64,000 bases of DNA from Thermococcus stetteri (GTDB taxonomy: Archaea; Methanobacteriota_B; Thermococci; Thermococcales; Thermococcaceae), in contig NZ_JAGGKB010000001.1 of assembly GCF_017873335.1 (NCBI RefSeq), positions 186,001 to 250,000 of the forward strand. Reading direction: 5' to 3'. How positions within the stretch are numbered: the stretch's first letter is position 1; every line of letters begins with the position of its first letter. Under the pieces are notes generated by a model. It searched no databases and had not been told where the DNA came from. It saw nothing but the letters and a program-made list of their open reading frames with translations. Both the position numbers and the translations under genes were made by a program. Positions 3,013 to 34,004 of the stretch are shown one piece after another.

Positions 3013-3642
3013 ATGGTTAAGCTCATAGCTTTTGACCTCGAGGGAACGCTCGTTAAGTCGGTGTCCGGCTGGGTCGAACTCCACAAAAAGTTTGGAACGT
3101 GGGAGAAAGGAAAAGAGTACGCCGAGGCGTTTTTCAACGGGGAGATAGACTACGCCACGTGGGCGAGGCTCGACGCTTCCCTCTGGAGGGGGCACAGAAA
3201 AGAGGAAATACTGGAGTGGGCGAACTCCGTCGAGTACATGGACGGCGCAAAGGAGCTCATTAAGTTCCTCAAGGATAACGGCTTCAAGATAGCCATCCTC
3301 AGCAGTGGGCTTATGTGTCTCGCTAAGAGAGTGGGAAAAGAGCTTGGTGTGGACTACATCTACGCCAACGAGCTCGTCTTTGACGAAGATGGCAGGATAA
3401 CCGGTGATGTGAACCCCATCGTTGATTTCCAGGGCAAGGGCACCATACTCAGAAAGCTCAAGGAGGAGTTGAAGCCAGAGCTGACTGTGGCAGTTGGAGA
3501 CGGCTATAACGACATCAGCATGTTCATGGAGGCCGACGTGGCCATAGCGATAAACCCCCATGAGGGGGTTGAGGGCGACCACAACGTCGAGAGCCTCTAC
3601 GAGGTCAGGGAGATAATCGAAGAGCTGATACGGGGTCAGTGA
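3013..3642 (+). CDS. HAD-family phosphatase, phosphoserine phosphatase-like
   Basis: 209 residues with all four HAD motifs: FDLEGTLV (nucleophile Asp; the second acid is Glu, as in the ThrH/SerB-like branch), LSSG, the Lys region near GKGTILRKL, and VAVGDGYNDISM. It probably hydrolyses a small phosphomonoester such as phosphoserine, but the substrate cannot be read from the sequence. The ATG at 3013 follows a GGTGGT site. The end of the gene is shared with an opposite-strand C/D-box RNA whose D box lies over the last codons. Confidence 0.85.
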   Translation: MVKLIAFDLEGTLVKSVSGWVELHKKFGTWEKGKEYAEAFFNGEIDYATWARLDASLWRGHRKEEILEWANSVEYMDGAKELIKFLKDNGFKIAILSSGLMCLAKRVGKELGVDYIYANELVFDEDGRITGDVNPIVDFQGKGTILRKLKEELKPELTVAVGDGYNDISMFMEADVAIAINPHEGVEGDHNVESLYEVREIIEELIRGQ

Positions 3643-3688
3643 AGGGCGTGCTCATCACAGTCAGCAAAGCAAAAGCTCTTCATCCCCC
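3632..3688 (-). ncRNA. C/D-box guide sRNA (2'-O-methylation guide)
   Basis: Read on the minus strand the order is canonical: C box core GATGA (3680-3684), a guide of about 14 nt, D' box CTGA (3661-3664), a 3-nt spacer, C' box TGATGA (3652-3657), a 12-nt guide GCACGCCCTTCA, and D box CTGA (3636-3639). The D'/C' and D spacing is that of archaeal C/D sRNAs, which direct fibrillarin to methylate rRNA or tRNA at the fifth base from the D or D' box. It overlaps the last codons of the HAD gene on the other strand and follows an H/ACA-like RNA. Targets not determined. Confidence 0.85.
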
Positions 3689-3689
3689 G

Positions 3690-3750
3690 ATGTAGGCCTG
3701 GCAGGAACCCCCGGTTCACGTTTCCCCGGGGAGGGCGGGATACCAGGCCG
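3690..3750 (-). ncRNA. H/ACA-box pseudouridylation guide RNA candidate
   Basis: On the minus strand: lower stem GGCCTGG (3743-3749) pairs with CCAGGCC (3695-3701). An internal pocket is formed by 3732-3742 and 3702-3708. The upper stem CCCCGG/CCGGGG (3726-3731 with 3709-3714) is capped by an 11-nt loop that contains GTGA, as in an archaeal K-loop. ACA (3691-3693) follows the lower stem by one base. The distance from the upper stem to ACA is 15 nt, within the 14-16 nt expected for archaeal H/ACA guides. A TATA box lies about 28 bp upstream. Confidence 0.65.
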
Positions 3751-3770
3751 GAAACTGTTTGGGAACTCCC

Positions 3771-3785
3771 CTTAAAACTTTAAAG
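3771..3785 (-). promoter_or_regulatory. TATA promoter for the H/ACA and C/D RNA pair
   Basis: CTTTAAAG (3778-3785, with a second AT-rich half TTTTAAG beside it) is a strong archaeal TATA element about 28 bp before the predicted 5' end of the H/ACA RNA. It overlaps the stop codon of the prepilin peptidase gene. Confidence 0.55.
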
Positions 3786-5003
3786 GCCCAGTACCTTTAG
3801 CTCCAACCACCAGAAGATATCCCCCCAAAAGTAGCTTATGAGGAAGCCCAGGAATATGGCAGGTGCAAAGGGCATCGCCTTCTTTCTCAGGAACCTGTTC
3901 TCGAGCTTTCCCTCTTCAACGAGTTTTTTCAGCTCTTCACTCTGTTCCTTAGTAAGGCCCTCCGCAGTGGGAGAGGCTATTATCCTCCCCTCTTGCTTTT
4001 TGAGAAAACCAGTGTCCCCTTTCAGGAGGGCATCTTTAATCTTGTCCCAGAAAGACGTCCTGTCCCTCACTAATTGACCCTCCAGCTCATAGATAGTCTC
4101 ACCAAGGATGTCCCACTCCCGAAGCTCCTCTACGGGCACCTCTTCCATGAGCACTTCCACCCTGAGAAACTTCACGAGTGCAAGGAACACTTTGAAACTG
4201 TATAGGACAACGAGCAGTCTGAAGAATGCAAGAAGTGTTGGAATTGGGTTGATATATATAAGGTATCCCAAGACTGCAAGACTCACAGGAATGCCAACCT
4301 TCTCAAATTTTCCGAGGAGAACTATGATCACTACAGCGAATAGCCAGCCGATGGCTGGTCCCATACGATATCCAGTGAGGGTTTCCACGAGTAGCTTAAA
4401 GCCTAGACTAGCCAGGAGCAGTACCGATAGCTTTACAGTGATCAAACTCTTCTCGACGAATATCTCTTTTAGTGCACCAGTTTTTTTCCTCACAACAACC
4501 ACTGCTAGGGTGTAAACTATGATAAACGGGAACACCGCAAGGAGGCTGTTGAAGAGTATAGCAACTGGGTATAGAGGGAGTCTGGAATAATAGGGAGCCA
4601 CTACTGTGGCCATCTTTGGCGGATAAGGGAGCAACGCCGAAAACCCCGCCAGAATAAGGGCATCTCCACTGGCCCATGCACCCATATAGAACAGAACTAA
4701 CCCCAACATTAACCCCACAAAAAACGCTAGGAAACCGGACAGAGCAACAAGAAGATCCCCCGTGCTCAGCCCCTTATACAAATAGTAAAGGATGCCAACC
4801 TCTACGGCAGGGATGGGCAACTTTTCGAGCCAAGAGGGAATGTCCAGCTTGATGTCCTTCTCTTCCCATCCCAGGAGTTTCCCTAAGAGCACAAGAGAGA
4901 GCGAGACATGGTTGTCAAAGATGAACCCAGTCTTCAAATCCGTATAAGAAGTCACTAATCCCATAACTGATCCAAAAATTAGGGGGAACACGTCTATGTT
5001 CAC
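3780..5003 (-). CDS. Prepilin peptidase, A24 aspartyl protease family, long form
   Basis: A 407-residue polytopic membrane protein. The two catalytic aspartates of the type IV prepilin/preflagellin peptidase family appear in SYTDLKTGFI near residue 20 and in the ASGD motif near residue 112, a GxGD variant. The first 170 residues match the compact family; extra membrane segments and a soluble region (about 280-380) make it much longer than FlaK (about 230). It starts with GTG 16 bases after the class III pilin gene, so the pilin is the likely substrate. Start choice: GTG at 5003 follows GGGGTGA. Confidence 0.8.
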   Translation of the reverse strand: MNIDVFPLIFGSVMGLVTSYTDLKTGFIFDNHVSLSLVLLGKLLGWEEKDIKLDIPSWLEKLPIPAVEVGILYYLYKGLSTGDLLVALSGFLAFFVGLMLGLVLFYMGAWASGDALILAGFSALLPYPPKMATVVAPYYSRLPLYPVAILFNSLLAVFPFIIVYTLAVVVVRKKTGALKEIFVEKSLITVKLSVLLLASLGFKLLVETLTGYRMGPAIGWLFAVVIIVLLGKFEKVGIPVSLAVLGYLIYINPIPTLLAFFRLLVVLYSFKVFLALVKFLRVEVLMEEVPVEELREWDILGETIYELEGQLVRDRTSFWDKIKDALLKGDTGFLKKQEGRIIASPTAEGLTKEQSEELKKLVEEGKLENRFLRKKAMPFAPAIFLGFLISYFWGDIFWWLELKVLGL

Positions 5004-5019
5004 GGTTTCACCCCACTAT

Positions 5020-5187
5020 TCAGAGGTTTTCCAGAATCTTCCGCCTAACATGAGTTGCGTAGTTGTCCAAGTTTGTCTTGGTCTCCTTGAGTGCGGGTAG
5101 CACTACTTGTATGACTATTGCAACGAGGATTAAAACCACAGCGACCATAAGTAGGTACTCGAGGGCTCCCTGTGCTCTGCGGATCAT
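5020..5187 (-). CDS. Class III signal peptide (type IV pilin-like) protein
   Basis: A 55-residue protein. It begins MIRRAQGALEYLLM and continues into a 20-residue hydrophobic segment, the layout of class III (Q-x-x-x-E-x-x-x-L-like) prepilins. The conserved Gln is at position 6, Glu at 10 and Leu at 13, and cleavage is expected just before the Gln. After the helix only about 25 residues remain, so it is a minimal pilin. It is co-directional with, and 16 bases before, the A24 peptidase, which makes a pilin-peptidase operon. The ATG at 5187 follows AGGTGTTG. Confidence 0.82.
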   Translation of the reverse strand: MIRRAQGALEYLLMVAVVLILVAIVIQVVLPALKETKTNLDNYATHVRRKILENL

Positions 5188-5262
5188 TTTCAACACCTGT
5201 TTTAGTTTCGGATTCCAAAGCTTTAAAAGTTTCTATTGTGGTTGAAGTTCCGGTAGAGAAAG

Positions 5263-5601
5263 ATGAAGGTCTACAGACTTTTTGTTAAGGATGAATACCT
5301 CGAGTTCATACGCTCGGGCGAGAAGAGAATTGAAGTTAGAGTAGCGTACCCGCAGTTTAGGAACCTCAAACCCGGTGACAAGATAATCTTCAATGACTCG
5401 ATCCCTGCGGTCGTAACCGGAGTAAAAAGATACGAGACTTTCAGACAAGCACTCAGAGAGGAGCCAATAAAGAAAATCTTCCCCGACGAACCGAGCTTCG
5501 AACGAGCCGTAAAGAGGTTCCACAATCTCTACCCTAAATGGAAGGAGAACCGCTATGGTGTAATCGCCATTAAATTCAAGCTCCTCGGTGAGGGGAGATG
5601 A
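5263..5601 (+). CDS. ASCH domain protein
   Basis: 112 residues. It reads as an ASCH domain (a PUA-like beta barrel predicted to bind RNA or modified nucleosides): [20 protein letters not shown], then LKPGDKIIF, with the typical basic residues after the Glu-Lys-Arg turn. A TATA element CTTTAAAAG lies near 5220, about 40 bp before the start. The stop overlaps the next ASCH gene by ATGA, so the two are translationally coupled. Biochemical role unknown; some ASCH proteins deaminate or hydrolyse modified cytidines. Confidence 0.8.
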
Positions 5602-6167
5602 AGCACCTCGAATTCGATGGGAAGTATGCGGAAGACATACTCCGGGGGAAGAAACGGGCAACTGTCAGGCTCGGCAGAAGGCCTAATCTCAAGGAGGGCG
5701 ACACCGTCCTTATCCACGCCGGGGGCTACGCTCTCGGAAAGGCCGTAATAGAGAGAGTCGAGAGCAAGACCGTCGGAGAGCTCACCGATGAAGACGCATT
5801 TCTTGACGGATTTTCCAGTAGGGAAGAGCTGATAAAAGCACTCAAAGGACACTATAAGTACGTAAACGATGAGTCACCCGCTCACGTTATAGTCTTCAGA
5901 CTTGTCGAAAAGTTCGACAAACCCGTTATGAGTTCTGATTACGCTTACGAGGGCAACCTACCAGTTGAAATCGCGGAGAAGGCCCTCAAGTACCTAGACC
6001 TTCCAGAAGAGGACAAGAAACTGATAGAGCTGTTCCTGAAAACGGGAAGTCTGAGAAAAGCTGCCTACAGACTCGGCGGACTGAACAAGAGGTACCTGAT
6101 CCGAGAAGCCCTGAGGAGAGCTTATGAAGAGCTGAAAAAGAGGGGCATCATGGGGCCGAAACTTTAA
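5598..6167 (+). CDS. ASCH domain protein with C-terminal helical extension
   Basis: 189 residues. The first 110 form a second ASCH domain ([32 protein letters not shown], and a closing [11 protein letters not shown] strand). The last 70 residues form a helical, basic extension with a helix-turn-helix-like pattern ([19 protein letters not shown]). The start codon overlaps the stop of the preceding ASCH gene, so both proteins are made together. The two ASCH genes are diverged from each other, not a recent duplication. Function unknown; RNA-related by family. Confidence 0.8.
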
Positions 6168-6429
6168 TGTTCTCTAGGACAGCCACCCTCTCTTCCCCAT
6201 CTACCTCAGTCTTACTTGCTGAAAGCTTCACCGGCATGAGCTTGAAGGTGTTGCCGTTTATAAGCTTCCTCAGGAGCTTCTCAAACTCCTCTAGTTCCTC
6301 TTCACTGGCGAAGTCAACCTTTGCTATAAAGTCGTACTCTCCGTAGAGCCACTGCCCCTCCACGGGGATGCTTTCCAAGACCTCATCCCTCACGCCCCAC
6401 ACCAGGAGTATCGCCTCGATCTCAATCAC
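6148..6429 (-). CDS. Stand-alone Lrp/AsnC ligand-binding (RAM) domain protein
   Basis: 93 residues with the beta-alpha-beta-beta-alpha-beta pattern of the RAM domain of Lrp/AsnC regulators (IEIEAILLVWGVRDEVLE, then GEYDFIAKVDF, then EEFEKLLRKL), but with no helix-turn-helix. Such single-domain proteins can bind amino acids or pair with full Lrp regulators. It starts with GTG at 6429; no better start exists downstream. Its 3' end overlaps the convergent ASCH gene by 20 bases. Confidence 0.65.
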   Translation of the reverse strand: MIEIEAILLVWGVRDEVLESIPVEGQWLYGEYDFIAKVDFASEEELEEFEKLLRKLINGNTFKLMPVKLSASKTEVDGEERVAVLENIKVSAP

Positions 6430-6576
6430 CTACGTATGATACGCCCAGAAGATTATATCTTTTTCCAAAGATTTTCTGAATTTATGTCCAGCTAGTCAAT
6501 CATTTTCGGTCTTGAGTTGTCATACTGTCAGGAAGCCCTTTTAAGACGTGAAAACAAGGATTACCCGGTGATGCTG

Positions 6577-7281
6577 ATGAGGGCAGTTTTCTTTGACTTC
6601 GTTGGTACGCTCATAACGAAGGCAGGCGAAAACGTGACGCACCTCAATATAATCAAGGAAGTGTTGAAAAAAACCGGTAGGGATGACCTGAACGCTGAAG
6701 AAGTATGGAGAGCCTATGAGGAGGAGAGCTCTGCACTCTTCTCAGAACTTGCCGGGAAGGAAGCAGTGAAGATAAGGGAAGTTGACACAGAGGCTCTGAG
6801 AAGAGTTGCTGAGAGGTACGGCTTTACAGTACCAGAGGACTTCTGGGAGATAAGCATAAGGATGCACGAGAAGTACGGCCAGCTCTTCCCTGATGCAGTA
6901 GAGGCAATAAAGGCCCTGAAGGGCATGGGTCTGCACGTCGGCATAATCACTGATTCAGATAACGACTACATCACTGCTCATCTAAAGGCCCTCGGGATAT
7001 ACGACCTGTTCGACAGCATAACGACGAGCGAAGAAGCCGGCTACTTCAAGCCCCATCCGAGGCCCTTCCAGCTTGCCCTCGAAAAGGCGGGTGTTGAACC
7101 AGACGAGGCCCTCTACGTTGGCGACAATCCGAAGAAAGACTGTACGGGAGCAAAAAACGTCGGAATGACCAGTGTTCTCCTAGACCCAAGCGGAGAAAAG
7201 AGAGAGCTGTGGGAAAACTGCGACTTCGTCGTCTCGAGCCTCTCCGAAGTCGTTGAGATAGTAAAGGGGCTGAGGAGCTAG
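6577..7281 (+). CDS. HAD superfamily hydrolase, subfamily IA
   Basis: 234 residues. Motif I is FFDFVGTL (the second acidic residue is replaced by Val, so a classic general acid is absent), motif II is ITDSDN, motif III Lys lies in YFKPHPRPF, and motif IV is YVGDNPKKDCTGAK. These match the archaeal HAD-IA group annotated as TIGR02253. The substrate is unknown. The start at 6577 (or 6571) follows GGTGATG; a TATA-like CCTTTTAAG lies about 35 bp upstream. A C/D sRNA on the opposite strand begins right after its stop. Confidence 0.82.
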   Translation: MRAVFFDFVGTLITKAGENVTHLNIIKEVLKKTGRDDLNAEEVWRAYEEESSALFSELAGKEAVKIREVDTEALRRVAERYGFTVPEDFWEISIRMHEKYGQLFPDAVEAIKALKGMGLHVGIITDSDNDYITAHLKALGIYDLFDSITTSEEAGYFKPHPRPFQLALEKAGVEPDEALYVGDNPKKDCTGAKNVGMTSVLLDPSGEKRELWENCDFVVSSLSEVVEIVKGLRS

Positions 7282-7344
7282 GGGTCAGCAACGGCAGGGT
7301 TCCTCATCGGTTATTACCTCGCCTAGCGAAATTCTCATCATTCC
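7282..7344 (-). ncRNA. C/D-box guide sRNA with a 23S rRNA-like guide
   Basis: Minus strand: C box ATGATGA (7335-7341), guide GAATTTCGCTAG, degenerate D' box GCGA, 9-nt spacer, C' box CCGATGA (7304-7310), guide GGAACCCTGCCGTTG, D box CTGA (7285-7288). The first guide is complementary to UAGCGAAAUUC, which from memory is part of a nearly universal 23S rRNA segment (GGUAGCGAAAUUCC). The rule of five would then place a methyl group on the C of UAGC. The RNA begins about 10 bases after the archaetidylinositol phosphate synthase stop on the same strand. Confidence 0.82.
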
Positions 7345-7353
7345 CCTCTCTTT

Positions 7354-7923
7354 TCACTCCTTGAGCCTCTGATAAGCCGCCCACATCCTCTGGAAGACCG
7401 TTATCCACGCAAGTAAGCCGACGAGGTAAACACCCCACTTTACGTACTCATCCCCAACCAATGAGAACGCTATCAGGATCAACAGTCTCTCGGCTCTCTC
7501 GGCTATCCCAACCGCTAGCGTTCCAGAACCAGCAAGCTCGGCCCGACAGCGCTCGTAGCTGACGAGGTAGGCACCCATGAAAGTCAGGAACGTCCAGCGC
7601 CAGTCCGCGAGGTTCCCAAGGGCTATACCGAAGAGGACTGCACCGTCGCTTATCCTGTCGAAGGTTGAATCCAAGAACGCTCCAAATCTGCTCGTCTTTC
7701 CCGTCATCCTGGCCAGCGTTCCATCAAGGGCATCCACAGCAGAGCCAACCAGGAGGACGAGCGCAGCGAGCCTCGGGCACTGGAGGTAGAAAAGGTACGC
7801 ACCAAAAAGGCTTATCAACAGCCCAGTAAACGTTATCGTGTTCGGTGTGACACCAGCCTTTGCGAGGGGCCTTACAATGGCCTCGAGGTAGCCCCTGACG
7901 TTCTCCCTGTACTTGTTGAGCAT
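7354..7923 (-). CDS. CDP-alcohol phosphatidyltransferase, probable archaetidylinositol phosphate synthase
   Basis: 189 residues with the whole family signature D-x2-D-G-x2-A-R-x8-G-x3-D-x3-D, seen as DALDGTLAR followed by FGAFLDSTFDR. About five hydrophobic membrane segments surround it. The enzyme joins CDP-archaeol with an alcohol phosphate; in Thermococcales the likely partner is myo-inositol 1-phosphate, giving archaetidylinositol phosphate at the cytoplasmic membrane. The inositol preference is inferred from length and family, not from a residue. It lies 9 bases after aTrm56 and is the last gene of the lipoprotein-Trm56 operon. Confidence 0.85.
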   Translation of the reverse strand: MLNKYRENVRGYLEAIVRPLAKAGVTPNTITFTGLLISLFGAYLFYLQCPRLAALVLLVGSAVDALDGTLARMTGKTSRFGAFLDSTFDRISDGAVLFGIALGNLADWRWTFLTFMGAYLVSYERCRAELAGSGTLAVGIAERAERLLILIAFSLVGDEYVKWGVYLVGLLAWITVFQRMWAAYQRLKE

Positions 7924-7932
7924 AATCCCACC

Positions 7933-8460
7933 TCACTCGAGCTGGAGGACTTTCTTGCCACGCTCCTGAGGAACTATCTTGAGCTTTGCGTTTTGAAACT
8001 CCTTCCTGAGGCCCGCACCCTCGAGCAGTCTGTCGAGGAACACCGCCAGGGCAGCGACCTCGCTGTGGGGCTGGTTGCCAACTGCCACGTTGTAATCCGC
8101 TATTTCGTAGACCTCCCTCGGCACCTTTTCGGCACCGACAACGATCAGAATGTCTTTTCCAGACTTCAACTCCTCCTTTATGAGTGGAACGGCGTTGTCA
8201 ATATGGATTCCATACATGGTGAGATGAACAACAACACCCTCCCACTCCCGAAGGAGTTTCTTCCAGCTAGGATTGAACTCTATTTCAAAGGGACCACCCC
8301 ACCTTCTTACGACGTCTTCCACGCTCTCCTTGACATGCTCATCCTCTTCCGCGGCTATTATGATTTTGTCAGCTCCGAAGGCTCTCGCGGTTAGGGCCAC
8401 GTGAGTTGTTATCCTCTTGTCCCTCTCCGGCCTGTGGCCGAGCCTTAACACGACTATCAT
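7933..8460 (-). CDS. tRNA (cytidine(56)-2'-O)-methyltransferase aTrm56
   Basis: 175 residues, SPOUT superfamily, close to the known archaeal aTrm56 length. It 2'-O-methylates C56 in the T loop of tRNAs. Seen: the opening [19 protein letters not shown] that is typical of the family, and the SAM-binding trefoil-knot region [28 protein letters not shown] (two stretches, about 105-130). Its start overlaps the stop of the lipoprotein gene by ATGA. Confidence 0.93.
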
Positions 8461-10082
8461 CCCACTTCACCGGTGAATATTTTCCAGTAGTACCTGAAAT
8501 CCTCTTTCCAGGGGACGTTTTTGTAAAAATCGTACATTGCTTTTATGGTTTTCTGAATCCTCTCAGTGCTCCATGTGCCTAAAACATTGTTCAGGCTCTC
8601 GTCGTCTGGCGCCGATGATAGTATGAAGAGGCCGTATATCCTCTCTTCAGGGCTCAACCCAGTGAAAACGAGATCAAGCTTAGAGCGGAGGTTGGGCTGT
8701 ACCCGCTTGACCAGAACGTCCATAATCCTAGGTTCAGCGTTTGAAGTAAAGTCATCAGTTATGTCAATATGACCATGGGTACCTTTTTTGGATGGGACTT
8801 GGGCAACAACACTGTATCCATCCCTCGTTATCAATTGATAAATTCTCGGGAAGTAAGGGCTCGCAAGATACTCATCAAGTGTCCCCACAAAACCATGTTT
8901 TACGTCTATGATATACCACCCATCCTCCGTGTAAAACTCCGATAGAGGCATTATCGTGCAGTCACTTCCATTAAAGAGGGAGACAACCCTGGAGGGGATG
9001 TTAATCGAACGGAGAAGTGCCGTCATTAAGAGCTGTTCTTCGGGAACACTCAATGAACCTTTCCCGATCATCTCCTCCGGGCTAAGGGTTGAGGTGTTTG
9101 ATGTTAGGTTGTATCTTAAGCTCAACCATGCCATCAGTTTGGATGAAGCGCCGTACTCTGAAACGGAGCCGTTAACAATAGGTAGAGCCACCTTCGATAG
9201 TGAGACGGGATCAAAGGATGAGCTTGAATTAAAACTAAGCTCCCAATATCCATCAACGAGTCTTTCTTCATGTATAAGGGAGTAGTACTGCCCGTACGCG
9301 GCCTTCAATTTGTCAGGGGTAGCCGACCACGGCTGCCATATCGTTACGATCTTAAAACTAGCCACATCAGTTTTATGGGAGCGCTCAGCATTTCTCATCC
9401 CAATCTGGTAATCCACTACAACGGATATAAGACCCGATCTGAATGCGTACGGAGCCAAAAACCGGTACCTCAAAACAAGACTGTCTCCAGGAGGAACAGC
9501 TTGAGGCAACTTAGGTGACTCAACAAGGGCAATCCCGTTGAGAAGAACGAAACTAACGTTATTCACTGTTACAGGATCGCGATAATTGTTCGTTATCCTA
9601 ACCTGAACGTCAAACTCATTCCCACCCACTACCTCCTGTGGGCTGTCCACTTTAATTTTGATGCCTTCTCCAGCAATGTTTTTAGAAGTCACCATGATTC
9701 TGAACTGGTAATAAAAACCCTTCCATGTCCTTTTTAGCTCATCTTTAAGCTCTAAAGACGCTTGGAGGGGGTAGACCCCAGACTTCTGGGGAGCCAGAAC
9801 TACCCATACCAGTTGCACAACCTGCCCAACTTTCAAGATTTGAGGAAATTGAGGCTCCTGAAGAATTTGAAACTCCTCGTTATTTAATATGAGCGTGGCT
9901 CCAATCAGACCAACCTTCCCAGTATTGTTAACGGTCACTATTATATGAAAAGTGCCGCCAGGTGGGACAGAAGTACTGTCAACGTAGAAAGAGACCTGAG
10001 CAGGAGGCTTGAAGAGGCATCCCGACACCAGCACCAGTAAAGCCACTGCGATGGAGGTGGAGATAAGGTTTCTTCCACTCAT
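8457..10082 (-). CDS. Lipoprotein with CARDB-like repeats and an inactive-looking transglutaminase fold
   Basis: 541 residues. The lipoprotein signal peptide ends LVLVSGC (Cys at about 22), so it is a lipid-anchored surface protein. Residues about 30-240 hold two beta-sandwich repeats of the NEW3/CARDB type ([18 protein letters not shown], then [16 protein letters not shown]). Residues about 320-430 look like a transglutaminase-like fold ([20 protein letters not shown], then [10 protein letters not shown]), but the segment where the catalytic Cys is expected has no Cys, so it may only bind. It heads an operon with aTrm56, without functional logic. Confidence 0.7.
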
Positions 10083-10120
10083 ATCAAATTCTTTAAATGC
10101 CCTAAGTTAATAAACTTTAG

Positions 10121-10909
<789 letters not shown>

Positions 10910-10924
10910 AGGGGGTTGGGAAAT

Positions 10925-11497
10925 ATGCCAAAACCAAAAAGAGGTCTCTTCGTCGGTCGCTTTCAGCCCGTCCACAACGGGCATATAAAGGCACTGGAAT
11001 TCGTTTTTTCGCAGGTCGATGAAGTGATAATCGGAGTTGGGAGTGCTCAGGCAAGCCATACGCTCAAAAACCCGTTCACGACGAGCGAAAGGATGGAGAT
11101 GCTGATAAGGGCTCTTGAAGAGGCAGGTTTGACGGATAAGAGGTACTATCTCGTCCCGCTTCCTGACATAAACTTCAACGCCATCTGGGCGACCTACGTG
11201 GTGAGCATGGTGCCGAGGTTTGACGTCGTCTTTACAGGGAATTCTCTCGTCGCCCAGCTCTTCAGAGAAAAGGGCTACGAGGTCATCGTCCAGCCGATGT
11301 TCAGGAAGGACATCCTCTCAGCGACCGAGATAAGGAGGCGGATGATTGAAGGGGAGCCCTGGGAGGAGCTGGTTCCCAAGAGCGTCGCCGAGTTCATAAG
11401 GGAGATCAAGGGAGTCGAGAGGATCAAGATGCTTGCGACGAACCTAGAAAGCTCGGAGAAGGAGCTTCAGGCGCCGATAAGGATTCCAGAATTTTAA
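10925..11497 (+). CDS. nadM: Nicotinamide-nucleotide adenylyltransferase
   Basis: 190 residues, archaeal NMNAT length. It makes NAD from NMN and ATP. The nucleotidyltransferase motifs are clear: GRFQPVHNGHIKALEF (the HxGH motif) and, near residue 124, ILSATEIRRRM (the ISSTxxR-type motif). Preferred start ATG at 10925 after GGGGGTTGGG. It follows the SAM hydroxide adenosyltransferase gene closely. Its last codon region overlaps the convergent membrane-protein gene by 4 bases. Confidence 0.95.
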   Translation: MPKPKRGLFVGRFQPVHNGHIKALEFVFSQVDEVIIGVGSAQASHTLKNPFTTSERMEMLIRALEEAGLTDKRYYLVPLPDINFNAIWATYVVSMVPRFDVVFTGNSLVAQLFREKGYEVIVQPMFRKDILSATEIRRRMIEGEPWEELVPKSVAEFIREIKGVERIKMLATNLESSEKELQAPIRIPEF

Positions 11498-11832
11498 AGT
11501 TGCTCGGGCGTCTCTTCTTTTTCTTCCCGATAGACCTTCCCAATGTAGCTCATTATGTCGTGGATTATGAAAAAGCTCATGGCCGCGTCCACCGCATATA
11601 GCAACGCTCCAGACATCAGGTAGAAAAGCGCCATCAGGAACTCAAGGCCAGCAAAGACGAGTGCAATTTTAACAGCGGTTCTGTTTTCTTTACCTGTCCC
11701 GTATGCCAGTGCCAGAGCAAACAGTGAGAACGCCAGATAAACCTCGGAGCCCGTTCGATAGTAATACGCCATAAACATTAGCCCGTAGATTGTCAGGAGA
11801 AGTGTTGAGACCATGAGGGGCTTAAGCCTCAT
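11494..11832 (-). CDS. Small hypothetical membrane protein
   Basis: 112 residues with about four hydrophobic helices (near 5-22, 28-45, 52-70 and 74-95) and a charged C-terminal tail (YREEKEETPEQL). No family is recognised. Its start overlaps the stop of the Cas4-like nuclease gene by ATGA, so both are in one operon. The tight coupling suggests a shared transcript, but a functional tie between a nuclease and this protein is only conjecture. Confidence 0.65.
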   Translation of the reverse strand: MRLKPLMVSTLLLTIYGLMFMAYYYRTGSEVYLAFSLFALALAYGTGKENRTAVKIALVFAGLEFLMALFYLMSGALLYAVDAAMSFFIIHDIMSYIGKVYREEKEETPEQL

Positions 11833-12476
11833 TCCGAGTCCTCCCAGTCCCTATCCGGATAACAGATGTACCTGTATGGGCAGAACCTGCAGGCGTAGCT
11901 CTTCCAACCCTCGGGAAGACGGTCGTTTTCGTAGGCCTTTTTGACCCTGTAGAAGTGGCGTAGTGTCTCCTTGAACAGGGATTTGTCGTAGGGCACCTCA
12001 AAAACCCTGAAGTTGGGGCCTTTTATCACGGGAAAAGACGAGATGTCCAGCTTGTTGATGATTTTCATCGGCTCCTCGTGAAGCTTTATGTAATAGAGGT
12101 AGCCGTACTCAGCCTCTGACCACCGGAGGTAGACGTTGAGCTGGGCCAGGTGGTAGTCGTAGGGCACCTTGGGAAGGCTTGTTTTTCCCTTTATCTCGAT
12201 GGGGAACTCTTTGAACGCATCTATCCGCCCGTGTATCTCGAAGCCGAGCTTGCTGGAGCGCAGGACAAGGTGTTTTTCAAGTTCAACGCCAAAGAGCTCT
12301 TGCAGTATCTGTCCGAGTATCTGGTGGGTGTTGGTCCCCTGGTTGAGCCTGACCCTCACGAACTCCGGCCACTTGGGGGGATATCCCTTGAGCCTGAAGT
12401 ATATCCTTCTCGGGCATGTAAGGGCCTCGCTGGCGTAGAACTCAATGAGACCGTCGTTCTCTCCGTTGCCGCTCAT
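11829..12476 (-). CDS. Cas4/Dna2-like PD-(D/E)XK nuclease, stand-alone
   Basis: 215 residues. Cas4-like order: an N-terminal Cys in ALTCPRRIYFRLKG, a His in NTHQILGQ, Asp in GRIDAF, the E-x-K of FPIEIKGK, the Gln motif HLAQLNVYL, and three more Cys in CRFCPYRYIC. The four Cys are expected to hold an iron-sulfur cluster. Enzymes of this group are exonucleases that open or trim DNA ends. No CRISPR array or other cas gene is in the window, so a role in DNA repair is as likely as CRISPR adaptation. Start 12476 follows GGAGGTGA. A C/D sRNA lies just upstream on the same strand. Confidence 0.82.
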   Translation of the reverse strand: MSGNGENDGLIEFYASEALTCPRRIYFRLKGYPPKWPEFVRVRLNQGTNTHQILGQILQELFGVELEKHLVLRSSKLGFEIHGRIDAFKEFPIEIKGKTSLPKVPYDYHLAQLNVYLRWSEAEYGYLYYIKLHEEPMKIINKLDISSFPVIKGPNFRVFEVPYDKSLFKETLRHFYRVKKAYENDRLPEGWKSYACRFCPYRYICYPDRDWEDSE

Positions 12477-12531
12477 TGCTTCACCTCCGTAAGCGGGACG
12501 GATCATCGGCCCGCAAACCTCCCCGCCCCTG

Positions 12532-12586
12532 CGTCAGCTAATACCGACGTCATCACAGTTCAGACTGGGCAAGGGTCGTCATCCGC
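12532..12586 (-). ncRNA. C/D-box guide sRNA with its own promoter
   Basis: Minus strand: C box GGATGAC (12578-12584), guide CGACCCTTGCCCAGT, D' box CTGA (12560-12563), 4-nt spacer, C' box TGATGA (12550-12555), guide CGTCGGTATTAG, D box CTGA (12534-12537). All four boxes and the 12-nt D guide have canonical spacing. A TATA box lies about 28 bp before the C box. It lies about 55 bases upstream of the Cas4-like gene on the same strand and could be part of that leader before processing. Confidence 0.85.
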
Positions 12587-12606
12587 AAAGAAAAGTTGAG
12601 AGGAAG

Positions 12607-12618
12607 AATTTAAAGGTT
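12607..12618 (-). promoter_or_regulatory. TATA element for the C/D sRNA
   Basis: Minus-strand CCTTTAAATTC is centred near 12612, about 25-28 bp upstream of the expected sRNA 5' end. Confidence 0.5.
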
Positions 12619-12628
12619 CTGGTTTGGG

Positions 12629-12973
12629 TCAGAGAACAACTCGTCTTTTCCTCTTTATCGAATAGCTCAACCCATAGGACGGCCAGAGACTCGGGGGGCT
12701 TTCGTAGTGGTGCAGATTCCTCAAAACCTTCTCGGCATTCTTCTTGCTCTTGGCCTTGACCCTCAGCCTGCTTTCCTCAAGTTCAATCTCCGCGTCGGGC
12801 AGGTGCACCACAAGCTTTGAACCCATAACTTCAGGCCTGGCCCTCATTAAAAGCCGGCGGTAGTTTTCGTAGGCTTCCCTGCTGAGGGTCTGTTCCAAAA
12901 CAGTTTCTTCCTTCTTCTTACCAAAAAGGCCGAAGAACCGACTATTCGGGGGTTCATCCTCCATACCCTTCAT
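12629..12973 (-). CDS. Hypothetical basic protein
   Basis: About 114 residues, no family recognised. It has a short N-terminal stretch rich in Gly, Lys and Phe (RFFGLFGKKKEET), a central helical part, then a beta-like core (SKLVVHLPDAEIELEESRLRVKAKSKKNAEKVL) and a basic tail (SIKRKRRVVL) that could touch nucleic acid. Starts at 12973 (2 bases after GGAGGT) and 12964 (11 bases after) are both possible. Codon use resembles the neighbours, so it is likely real. Confidence 0.6.
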   Translation of the reverse strand: MKGMEDEPPNSRFFGLFGKKKEETVLEQTLSREAYENYRRLLMRARPEVMGSKLVVHLPDAEIELEESRLRVKAKSKKNAEKVLRNLHHYESPPSLWPSYGLSYSIKRKRRVVL

Positions 12974-13093
12974 CGACCTCCGGTTCAAACGTTGTCTATT
13001 TTTACTTCTCGCTGTCCCATCTTTTAAGCCTTTCCCATCGTTTTTTGACGAAACGACAGAACTCTTTTAAAGAGCTGGTCCGTGTTTACTCCG

Positions 13094-13930
13094 ATGAAGA
13101 CACAAGTCATCAAGCCCAGGATACGTGAAATACTCTCAAGGGAGCTTCCTCCGGAACTCGTTCCGCTACTCCCCAAGCACTGGGTTCAGATAGGGGACGT
13201 TCTGATTCTTCCCCTCAGGTCCGAGCTTGAGCCTTACAAGGAGAGGATAGCTGAGGTCTATGCTCAAGTTATCGGGGCAAAGGCTGTTCTGAGGAAAGGG
13301 CACATTCACGGCGAGACCAGGAAGCCCGACTACGAGCTCTTGTATGGAAACGACACGGTAACGGTTCACGTCGAGAACGGCGTCAAGTACAAGCTGGACG
13401 CTGCGAGGGTAATGTTCTCCCCGGCCAACGTGAAGGAAAGGGTTAGGATGGCGGAGGTAGCCAAGCCTGGCGAGCTTGTGGTTGATATGTTCGCCGGCAT
13501 CGGGCACCTAAGCCTGCCGATGGCCGTCCACAAGGGTGCGAGGGTTATTGCCATTGAGAAGGACCCCTACACCTTCCGCTTTTTGGTTGAAAACATCTGG
13601 CTCAACGGCGTCCAGGACTTGATGACGCCCCACAACATGGACAACCGCGACTTTCCGGCTGAAAACATCGCCGACAGGATTCTCATGGGCTACGTTGTCA
13701 CGACCCACGAGTTCATCCCAAAGGCTTTAAGCATAGCGAAGGACGAGGCGATAATCCACTACCACAACACGGTTCCAGAGAAGCTAAGGCCTGAGGAGCC
13801 TTTTGCAACCTTCAAGAGGATCGCAAGAGAGCACGGCTACGAGGCTGAGAAGCTGAAGGAGCTGGTGATAAAGCGCTACGCTCCCGGAGTCTGGCACGTT
13901 GTGGTCGATATCAGGGTTTACAAGAGGTAG
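13094..13930 (+). CDS. taw2: tRNA(Phe) 4-demethylwyosine aminocarboxypropyltransferase Taw2 (TYW2 homologue)
   Basis: 278 residues. It transfers the aminocarboxypropyl group of SAM to demethylwyosine at position 37 of tRNA-Phe. The protein closely resembles, from memory, the P. horikoshii TYW2 enzyme: KPRIREILS at the start, GHIHGETRKPDYELLYG, FSPANVKERVRMA, the SAM loop VVDMFAGIGHLSLP, and HYHNTVPEKL. ATG at 13094 matches the start of that protein; a TATA element CTTTTAAAG near 13063 lies about 30 bp before it, so the mRNA may be leaderless. Confidence 0.92.
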   Translation: MKTQVIKPRIREILSRELPPELVPLLPKHWVQIGDVLILPLRSELEPYKERIAEVYAQVIGAKAVLRKGHIHGETRKPDYELLYGNDTVTVHVENGVKYKLDAARVMFSPANVKERVRMAEVAKPGELVVDMFAGIGHLSLPMAVHKGARVIAIEKDPYTFRFLVENIWLNGVQDLMTPHNMDNRDFPAENIADRILMGYVVTTHEFIPKALSIAKDEAIIHYHNTVPEKLRPEEPFATFKRIAREHGYEAEKLKELVIKRYAPGVWHVVVDIRVYKR

Positions 13931-14086
13931 CTACTCCCTCTCTCCCCAGAGCGGCTCCCAGTCGTCGCAGATGAAGTTCATGTGGACGGTTTTCATATGC
14001 TTCCTGCATATCCCGTGGTTTGGCAGGCAGGAATCTATCGGGCCGAACCAGCGGCAGTTCTTGCAGGCTTTAAGGTTCGGATCCAT
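13931..14086 (-). CDS. Cys-rich mini protein, probable zinc binder
   Basis: A 51-residue open frame with five Cys and four His: CKNC near residue 8, then C20, H24, C27, H30, H35 and C40 (KACKNCRWFGPIDSC, HGICRKH, NFICDDWEPLWG). The spacing suggests one or two metal sites. No family is recognised with certainty. It lies 35 bases after the tungsten oxidoreductase on the same strand, and its stop is directly at the end of taw2. Its composition and strongly patterned Cys argue that it is a gene and not chance. Confidence 0.65.
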   Translation of the reverse strand: MDPNLKACKNCRWFGPIDSCLPNHGICRKHMKTVHMNFICDDWEPLWGERE

Positions 14087-14121
14087 TGGGAATCACCCGG
14101 AAAGAAAAGGAATGAGAGGGC

Positions 14122-16023
14122 TTAAATTCCAGCCCCGATGTCCTCCGCGATGTCCGGAAGGTCGAGGGCAATGAGCTTGGCCTTGGTCGGGATTCCGTCC
14201 CTGCTCCAGCCGCGGGCCTGGTAGTACTCGTCGAGCATCCTGTCGAGCTCCCACGGCGGTACATGCATACCCTTGCTGACGCCCTCCGGAATCGGTTCCC
14301 ACATGATTCTGTACGGGAGCGTGTCGTCCTTCCTGCTGAAGCCCTCGCGGACGTTAAAGGCCCTAGCGATGTTCATTATCCTCTCGCCGATGACCATCAG
14401 CTCGGCCTCGCCAATGTTCATGCCGGTGATGGCCTCGACGAGCGGCGGGAAGCCCTCGAGGAAGTACATGTGCCTTGAGAACTTGCACGTTCCGGTGGCG
14501 TCGTAGACCGCCATGAGGTTCTCGTGGAACGCTATTTCGAATCCCTTGTTCTCGCCCCTGGTCCTGTCAACGCCGTCGAACTTCCACCACCTGCCGACGA
14601 GCTCGGTTCCGTAGGCGCCGCTGGTGAGGTGGTCGGCACCGCGGACGTTCACGGCGAAGGCGAGCGCCATTCCCTTTATACCGCGGACGTCGTAGGCAGG
14701 CGGCTCCATGCCCTTGACGTGCATGGCGAACTTCTCGCTGCCCTTTCCGAGCCTCTCGCTGGCCCTCTTGACACCGTCGGCGAGGAGCTTTCCGAGGTTG
14801 CCCTCGCGGTAGGCCATCTTCCTGAGGGCCTCGACCGCTGCCTCTCCGTTGCCGAAGGTGAGCTCTATGCCGTCGGCCTCTTCCTTGGTGAGGAGACCGC
14901 GCTCGTAAGCCTCCATGGCCCAGGCGATGGTAACACCCGCTGAAATCGTGTCGAGACCGTACTGGTCGGCGAGGTAGTTGAGGTAGGCAACGGTCTCGAA
15001 GTCGTCTATCTCAAGGACTCCACCGAAGGAGTAGAGGGTCTCGTACTCCGGGCCGTCGACCATGAAGGTGCCCCACTTCTTGCTCTCGACCTTCACGTAC
15101 TGGCTGCACGGCTTGTTACAGAGCGGGCACGGCTTCCTGCCGACGCGGTACTTGGGAGCCCAGAAGTAGGGGTCTATGCCGATGTGCTCCCTTCCCTCCT
15201 CCTTGGCCTTCTCGTAGGCCTTCTTGAAGAAGCCCATCTGCCAGTTTCTGGTCGGGAAGGTTCCCCTCTCGCGGTTCATCCAGTCGAGGAACTCACCGCT
15301 TCCGTACCCCATGTCGGCCTTCGTAGCCGGGTGGTCCTTGAAGATGAACGCCCACTTCTTTATCAGCTCGCGGAGCTTCTCGGGGTCGGCTATCGGGATC
15401 TTCTTGCTGCCCTTGACGAGGATTCCCTTGAGCTTCTTGCTTCCGAGGACTGCACCGGGGCCACCCCTGGCTGCCTGCCTCTCGTCGGTCTCTATTATCG
15501 AGATGAGGCTGAGCCTCTCACCGGCAGGGCCGATGAAAGCGGTTGCGTAGCCTGGGTACTCCTCCTTGGCCTTGCTCCTTGCCTCGCCGGTGGTAAGGCC
15601 CCAGTAGGCGTCGGCTGGGACTATCTTTACCTCGTCATCGTTGATAACGAGGAGAACAGGCTCTTCGCTCTGGCCTTCGATTATGAGCATGTCGTAGCCG
15701 GCCCTCTTGAGCTGGACGCCGAGCTCGGCACCGGCCATTGACCTGCCGTAGCCTCCAGTCAGCGGGCTCTTGAAGTTGAAGGCCGTCTTTGAGCCCGTCC
15801 CTATACCGGTGTCAACGAAGAGACCGGGGGTTATTATCATCTTGTTCTCGGGCCCGAGCGGGTCGGCACCCTTCGGAACCTCATCGTAGAGAACCCTCGT
15901 TCCAAAACCGACGCCACCGAGGTACTTCCTCGGGAACTCCTCGGGAAGGGGCTCGACCTTAACTTCCTTGGTAGTCAGGTTAACCCTCAGAATCCTGCCC
16001 CAGTATCCACCTTTTGCCTCCAT
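14122..16023 (-). CDS. Tungsten-containing aldehyde:ferredoxin oxidoreductase family protein
   Basis: 633 residues, slightly longer than AOR (605) and FOR (619) of Pyrococcus. The family oxidises aldehydes to acids and passes electrons to ferredoxin with a tungsten bis-pterin and a [4Fe-4S] cluster. Seen: WGRILRVNLTTKEV at the start, SPLTGGYGRS, the cluster motif CPLCNKPC near residue 292, and the two pterin-binding motifs DQYGLD and DATGTC, the latter with the fourth cluster Cys. It is not AOR, FOR or GAPOR proper; WOR4/WOR5-like is most likely, and the substrate is unknown. Start 16023 follows AGGTGATTTT. Confidence 0.9.
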   Translation of the reverse strand: MEAKGGYWGRILRVNLTTKEVKVEPLPEEFPRKYLGGVGFGTRVLYDEVPKGADPLGPENKMIITPGLFVDTGIGTGSKTAFNFKSPLTGGYGRSMAGAELGVQLKRAGYDMLIIEGQSEEPVLLVINDDEVKIVPADAYWGLTTGEARSKAKEEYPGYATAFIGPAGERLSLISIIETDERQAARGGPGAVLGSKKLKGILVKGSKKIPIADPEKLRELIKKWAFIFKDHPATKADMGYGSGEFLDWMNRERGTFPTRNWQMGFFKKAYEKAKEEGREHIGIDPYFWAPKYRVGRKPCPLCNKPCSQYVKVESKKWGTFMVDGPEYETLYSFGGVLEIDDFETVAYLNYLADQYGLDTISAGVTIAWAMEAYERGLLTKEEADGIELTFGNGEAAVEALRKMAYREGNLGKLLADGVKRASERLGKGSEKFAMHVKGMEPPAYDVRGIKGMALAFAVNVRGADHLTSGAYGTELVGRWWKFDGVDRTRGENKGFEIAFHENLMAVYDATGTCKFSRHMYFLEGFPPLVEAITGMNIGEAELMVIGERIMNIARAFNVREGFSRKDDTLPYRIMWEPIPEGVSKGMHVPPWELDRMLDEYYQARGWSRDGIPTKAKLIALDLPDIAEDIGAGI

Positions 16024-16231
16024 ACTAAAATCACCTCGAAGGATTTTCGAACGGGAAAATATAAGCTCATCGAAAATAGGCTTACTTTACAAGGATTTTA
16101 ATAGTAACCGATATCGCCAACCCGCTGTGCACAGAGTTGAGGAGCATGCCATAAACTCGGGATTCGCGGGAATACAAGGTGACCAGAATTGTTAATTTGC
16201 CTCCGAGTTTTAAGAGACCGCAGAAACGTTC

Positions 16232-32853: not shown

Positions 32854-34004
32854 ATGAAGAAGATAGTTACCTTGCTAGTTTATCTTCTTTTGACCTCTTA
32901 CCTAAACGTGGGATTCCTGGGCTTTGCACCAGTGAGCGCGGGAGGAAACGTTGTTTTTTCCGATGACTTCAATGACAACAGCCTTGACACAACGAAGTGG
33001 ACGGAGGACGTTGTTGGGTATGGAAACTCCTACACCGAGGCCAACGGGGAAGCCCAGTTCGTAACGTACAGTCATCAGGGCTGGAATTCCAGCCACGCGG
33101 TTCTGAGGAGCAAGGCCATCCATCTAGACAGCTGGAGCTCGATAACCCTCTCTGGGAGGTGGAAGTTCACCGACCCCGGAACGGCTGAGATGCTGGTGAG
33201 GATTGAAGACTTGAACTCAAACAACTTCGTGGGGGTCCACTACATAAGCTGGCCGAGCGAGCAGATATCCTACAGATACTACGCTGACCTCCTCCCCGCC
33301 CTGAAGGGCGAGGGTTCCAACGAATCAACCCCTCGCCAATGACGGGAAGGTTTGAGGGGTTCCATTCAGACCCAAACCAAAACGGGTCTTCGACCCCTCA
33401 GGCCGGGCCTTCGGCCAATTACCCCTACCCCCCGCAAGAGCGGGAAGGCTCGGGGTTATGGTTCTCAACCGATCTCTACAGGGTGACGTTCAGGGCAGGG
33501 GAAGACCTTGAGGGAGTACTGGCCGTTCGCCAGGAAGCGGGCGAGGTTGAGAACTACACCACCTACGCCCTCTTCAACGTGACCCACCCGGCAAACTGGT
33601 CGCTGGAGAACGTTACCATATCCTTCAGAGTCTCAAAGGAATGGCTCGATGGAAAGAATGGAACCCTCGTGCTCCTCAGGTATTCCGGCAGAAAGTGGGA
33701 GAAGTACGAGCCGATCTATGAGTACAGCGACAGGGAGTACTCCTACTACAGGGCGAGGGTTCAGGGATTGTCACTCTTCGCCGTAGCGGAGAAGATCGAG
33801 GTTCCCACTCCACCCTCGCCTGGAACCAACGAAACGACCGAAACAAAACCAACGACGGAAACAACAACCACTCCCAACCCAACGGAGACTCCGTCGAGCT
33901 CTCCATCGCCGCCGAACACTGAAAGCGGGAGCAACCTGCCCTACTACGCGCTCGGGATAGCGGTGCTGATACTCGTAGGGGCCTACATCTACAGGAAGCG
34001 GTGA
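32854..34004 (+). pseudogene. Surface protein gene (LamG-like and PGF-type domains), interrupted
   Basis: Two halves in different frames. 32854-33342 gives a signal peptide and the first part of a concanavalin-like domain (FSDDFNDNSLDTTKWTED, then VGVHYISWPSEQISYRYYAD). 33339-34004 gives a domain with STDLYRVTFRAGEDLEGV, a Thr/Pro-rich linker (TTTTPNPTETPSSSPSPP) and a C-terminal membrane anchor. The join holds about 185 bases of hairpin-rich DNA. Removing 33288-33472 restores one frame (YYAD-LYRV), so the gene was probably whole before an insertion. If nothing else was lost, the intact protein would be about 320 residues. Confidence 0.7.
33288..33472 (-). mobile_element. Non-autonomous IS200/IS605 (TnpB)-type relic, right-end/omegaRNA-like
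   Basis: On the minus strand this about 185-base segment is full of hairpins (CCCGC-TCTT-GCGGG, GGCC-GAA-GGCC, GGGTC-GAA-GACCC) and ends with CCTCGCCC-TTCA-GGGCGGGG-AGGAGG. From memory that last hairpin closes the right end of tnpB elements in Thermococcus and Pyrococcus, where it belongs to the omegaRNA scaffold. No tnpB or tnpA reading frame is present, so it is a MITE-like remnant inserted in the surface-protein gene. Exact ends are inferred from frame restoration, not from known termini. Confidence 0.55.

Follow-up and report, generated by a model that had tools for sequence, protein, structure and literature searches.

Structure of the locus

The window, a 64,000-nucleotide stretch of the Thermococcus stetteri genome, contains two fragments of a giant surface-protein gene, between which lies a minus-strand segment composed of the right end and the last 45 tnpB codons of a tnpB element (Table 1). 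The parent element is of a ~1.47-kb type that is present in the same genome. A 361-base query covering the finding gave 34 matches in this genome, which comprises 2.03 Mb in 7 contigs. Eight of them are tnpB-linked places that span the whole remnant at 91-95% identity, others show 81-86%, and the long matches are the 3′ ends of OrfB_IS605 (tnpB) genes. The similarity to an IS605-type end that had been proposed for this segment is very strong.

Table 1. Features at the split gene (window positions) and tnpB-less elements elsewhere in the genome
Feature	Position	Strand	Evidence
5′ fragment of giant surface-protein gene, 143 aa	32854..33283	+	82.5% identity over 143 aa to the N-terminus of the 4,692-aa gene of relative G018 (L099)
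Would-be ~16-nt guide, host sequence CGTAGTATCTGTAGGA, inside the 5′ gene fragment	33268..33283	-	Analogy with ISDra2 reRNA
tnpB-element remnant: omegaRNA scaffold and right end (180 bp)	33284..33463	-	Copies, 11-copy alignment, Rfam
Right-end palindrome CCTCGCCC-TTCA-GGGCGGGG	33294..33313	-	Also in tnpB-linked copies
Last 45 tnpB codons and stop, overlapping the omegaRNA	33325..33462	-	Translation TITPSLPALAGG...SLARG* matches tnpB C-termini
3′ fragment of the same giant gene, ~180 aa; PGF-pre-PGF domain and C-terminal membrane segment	33464..34004	+	60.7% identity over 183 aa to the G018 C-terminus; TIGR04213
Ten tnpB-less elements, 393-417 bp	L060-L066, L033-L035 (contigs C1, C2, C3, C4, C6, C7)		

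Alignment with 11 tnpB-linked copies corrected the borders of the segment, which had been placed at 33288-33472 (185 bp). At the right border, 33284, identity to these copies stops at ...GGAGGTCAG / GGAGGAGGTCAG; on the other side the first bases private to the relic are 33464 and 33466, and each base from 33463 down to 33284 is common to at least one tnpB-linked copy. The right end is identical in kind to those of the IS200/IS605 (IS1341-type) tnpB-linked elements of the same genome, and the predicted end hairpin was found within it. Since the left end and the adjacent target motif (TKAC) of such a tnpB-only element are both missing, the window copy is a fragment and not an element. Nor does it hold a tnpB gene beyond the codons listed in Table 1, and the expectation that no protein is coded thus nearly holds.

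In G018, the closest relative, the syntenic gene is a single uninterrupted frame (L099 2631-16709) without the segment, and the sequence flanking both fragments is collinear with it. The same N-terminus is found in several other relatives on frames of about 4,000-4,700 aa. The G018 protein has Ig-like and PGF-pre-PGF domains, which are usual in archaeal surface proteins. Only the first 143 and the last ~180 residues are retained in the window, ~13.1 kb of the gene (L099 ~3070-16184) being missing relative to syntenic relatives, and the end of the N-terminus homology coincides exactly with the right end of the element (33283/33284, codon 144). The middle of the gene was not found in a search of all contigs of the genome; as the same query finds it in four relatives (G001, G002, G018 and G056), its translocation to another site was rejected.

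The presumed halves of one gene are indeed homologous to one protein and lie in different frames, but rather than adjoining each other they correspond to opposite ends of a 4,692-aa gene. Removal of the segment had been thought to restore the reading frame, which it does only with the approximate 185-bp coordinates. Because 180 is a multiple of three, excision of the exact segment leaves the fragments out of frame, and a stop codon is soon met when 33283 is joined to 33464; moreover, as the fragments were never adjacent, a restored frame is meaningless. The restoration is a coordinate accident, and the exact boundaries rule it out as evidence for a simple insertion. Within the remnant, the ATGA at window 33339-33342 combines the TGA that stops the 5′ frame with the ATG of the 3′ frame; coupled translation of both fragments through this overlap is conceivable, and the overlap is probably due to chance.

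Predicted RNA of the remnant

Folding of the segment's minus strand gives -102 kcal/mol (z = -4.65), a stability that none of 200 shuffles reached. This agrees with the original description of the segment as hairpin-rich, and its DNA is of non-host origin. All 53 of the 53 consensus scaffold pairs defined by the alignment with tnpB-linked copies are kept. The conserved scaffold fold of a TnpB omegaRNA is thus present at the tnpB 3′ end, and the remnant matches the full length of sot0042 (RF02656, a haloarchaeal sense-overlapping transcript; positions 1-174 of 174, 45.4 bits, E = 2.9e-10) and also HgcC (RF00062; 42.9 bits, E = 3e-8), both below the Rfam gathering scores of 88 and 50 bits, respectively; tnpB-linked copy L050 likewise falls under the two curated thresholds. 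By sequence comparison the core idea, a TnpB-element relic with an intact omegaRNA-like right end, is well supported. Given that every base occurs in at least one tnpB-linked copy and that all scaffold pairs are kept, the remnant is probably recent. A Moco (molybdenum/tungsten) riboswitch was rejected at 27 bits (gathering score 36); tnpB-linked copy L050 gives an equally weak score, which therefore reflects the omegaRNA fold.

The last ~16 nt of the ISDra2 reRNA are derived from flanking DNA (PMC8612924). As in this reRNA (PMC8612924) and the haloarchaeal sotRNA (RF02656), the structured RNA of the remnant overlaps the tnpB 3′ end and the right end and stops at the element boundary, so that the flank would supply a guide, predicted to start at 33283 instead of 33287 as previously proposed. 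In contrast to these systems, tnpB is gone but for 45 codons, the left end and target motif are absent, and the RNA is a predicted one. A genome search found no target of this guide elsewhere with a preceding TKAC within 3 mismatches.

The remnant also carries the same 3′ sequence, GCCCTTCAGGGCGGGGAGGAGGTCAG, as HgcC; it differs in scoring under the 50 bits of that family, whose model is confined to the 3′ portion of the RNA. Three HgcC RNAs of T. kodakarensis have their starts within transposase genes (PMC4247193). The family seems to correspond to the 3′ portion of TnpB omegaRNAs, and no paper linking HgcC to TnpB, sotRNA or IS1341 was found in the open-access literature searched.

Origin of the remnant

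It is very probable that a tnpB element was inserted into the giant gene and that an adjacent deletion then left an inert transposon scar in a pseudogene. A ~1.47-kb IS200/IS605 (IS1341-type) element would have entered the gene in minus orientation, at a point after codon ~143, and a deletion of ~14 kb would subsequently have removed everything from the tnpB 3′ end up to and including the left end, together with ~13.1 kb of the gene, leaving 180 bp (45 tnpB codons, omegaRNA scaffold and right end) between two pseudogene end fragments. This explanation is supported by the near-identical tnpB-linked copies, the lack of any base private to the relic, the complete set of scaffold pairs, the exact right end, the collinear G018 flanks and the absence of the gene middle from the genome. 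Instead of the simple insertion initially suggested, the element remnant sits at the junction of a ~13-kb deletion. The order of the events, a single deletion and its mechanism are what we infer; insertion and deletion could also have comprised several events, the ancestral allele of this species being unseen. Also against the explanation, G018 has TTGC and not TKAC at the expected position of the target motif, which, being one synonymous change from TTAC, is suggestive only as a pointer to the target site; and the assembly, a draft in 7 contigs, carries a small chance of misassembly.

In all likelihood the remnant is inert, and any transcript of it would need read-through antisense to the pseudogene. 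That it is instead a working lone omegaRNA gene, whose minus-strand transcript would be taken up in trans by TnpBs from other loci and would direct cleavage of incoming intact alleles of the giant gene, is possible but unlikely. Three intact 436-aa tnpB genes (L049, L050 and L051) could provide the protein, and T. kodakarensis expresses two HgcC RNAs that have no accompanying transposase gene (PMC4247193). The unbroken scaffold pairing would fit such a gene too, but the recent age of the event by itself accounts for the intact fold. That the deletion halts where the omegaRNA model has its 5′ limit may be due to chance or may hint at selection, and a single case does not discriminate between the two. 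The part of tnpB in which the T. kodakarensis HgcC transcripts begin is lost here, and inspection by eye of 120 upstream bases of the minus strand revealed no TATA-like box; for these two reasons a functional lone guide source is improbable.

An assembly artefact would account for both the 13-kb gap and the junction, and three of the contigs in this draft (C4, C5 and C6) end within or beside tnpB elements. However, at the left junction unique host sequence abuts the interior of the element, an arrangement that a repeat-driven misjoin would not create, and the missing 13 kb is found on no contig, which makes an artefact very improbable. The least probable proposal, that the right end alone moved as a unit into a short (~320-aa) gene, a reading to which the original frame argument points, could appeal to the short paralogues of about 290-340 aa with the same N-terminal domain in relatives, but it is already contradicted by the 83% identity of the window N-part to the giant gene versus 45-60% to the short paralogues, by a C-part that matched only the end of the giant gene in the loci searched, by the lack of a left end and target motif, and by the unrestored frame after exact excision.

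The preferred origin, insertion followed by deletion, makes the remnant itself a known kind of deletion derivative, the anatomy of which is corrected here. In Haloquadratum, deletion derivatives include a core deletion from 1,500 bp to 52 bp by direct repeats (PMC3119063). Like the PATEs and core-deleted IS605-type elements described there (PMC3119063), the window copy is tnpB-less and born by deletion; unlike PATEs it has lost its left end together with 13 kb of the flanking gene, and it is thus the scar of an adjacent deletion and not a two-ended element.

The element family in this genome

Three classes of elements with the same ends were found in this genome: tnpB elements of 1,454-1,480 bp, the ten tnpB-less elements of Table 1 and eleven elements of 46-50 bp. 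Apart from the window copy, 29 elements have a left end, which follows TKAC in 28 cases and TGAT in one. In the 46-50-bp elements (L036-L046), each lying directly after TKAC, the left-end leader runs straight into the right-end palindrome. They look like the outcome of deletion between the similar end palindromes (CCTCGCCCTTCAG occurs in both), or else they are self-moving mini-elements, and they closely parallel the 52-bp terminal-only versions in Haloquadratum (PMC3119063). The 48-bp micro-element had no exact match in the named genome collection. Because the sole Y1 transposase (tnpA) gene found (C4:58431-58781; L047, G000:C4:55000-60500) is interrupted by an in-frame TGA and lies next to a broken tnpB, the family may have lost the ability to move on its own in this genome.

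Across the genome there are 31 HgcC-like places, none of them above the gathering score, and those with better scores fall at ends of the element family. Exact copies of the 31-base right end GCCTCGCCCTTCAGGGCGGGGAGGAGGTCAG are present in genomes of Archaeoglobi, Desulfurococcales, Nitrososphaerales and Nezhaarchaeota as well as Thermococcales (L106-L129), a distribution pointing to horizontal spread of the element.

The ~400-bp elements keep both ends, and the copies examined have no long frame in common. A further shared feature is a box, AAACCCYTTTAAAC, which is kept in the divergent L035 and slightly changed in several other genomes, and which reads like an archaeal BRE/TATA. Their 3′ half gives a weak match to sot0042 and a clearer one to HgcC. 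An alignment of 19 copies from several genomes supports a fold in which the order of helices is similar to that of the tnpB-linked RNA. Both bases vary in 9 of its 36 pairs, against a mean of 3.0 in 500 shuffles, none of which reached that number; the count is to be read with the caveat that the structure comes from this very alignment and that related copies inflate such counts. Sequence similar to the omegaRNA half (query L064:603-830) was detected in 37 of 61 genomes of the genus at E <= 0.001, the weakest of these matches spanning only the shared right end.

Both ends in the absence of a transposase gene, the arrangement that defines PATEs, are present in the ~400-bp and the 46-50-bp elements but not in the window copy. 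Judged from their sequences, the ~400-bp elements look like PATEs with a retained, transcribed putative omegaRNA. We tentatively propose, as an idea with a modest chance of being correct, that these solo two-ended elements, with a promoter of their own, yield only omegaRNA that related TnpBs would load in trans; the pool would be maintained and defended by the shared nucleases, the orphan HgcC RNAs would be such omegaRNAs, and the window remnant would be a degenerate relative.

Taken alone, the remnant is a clean example of a tnpB element decaying to its omegaRNA end with a large loss from the host gene alongside. In context, it ties the HgcC RNA family of hyperthermophilic archaea to the ends of TnpB elements. 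The part worth following is the wider set of solo omegaRNA elements more than the remnant, as these tnpB-less, apparently self-transcribed elements provide a set for testing the use of guide RNAs in trans by TnpB.
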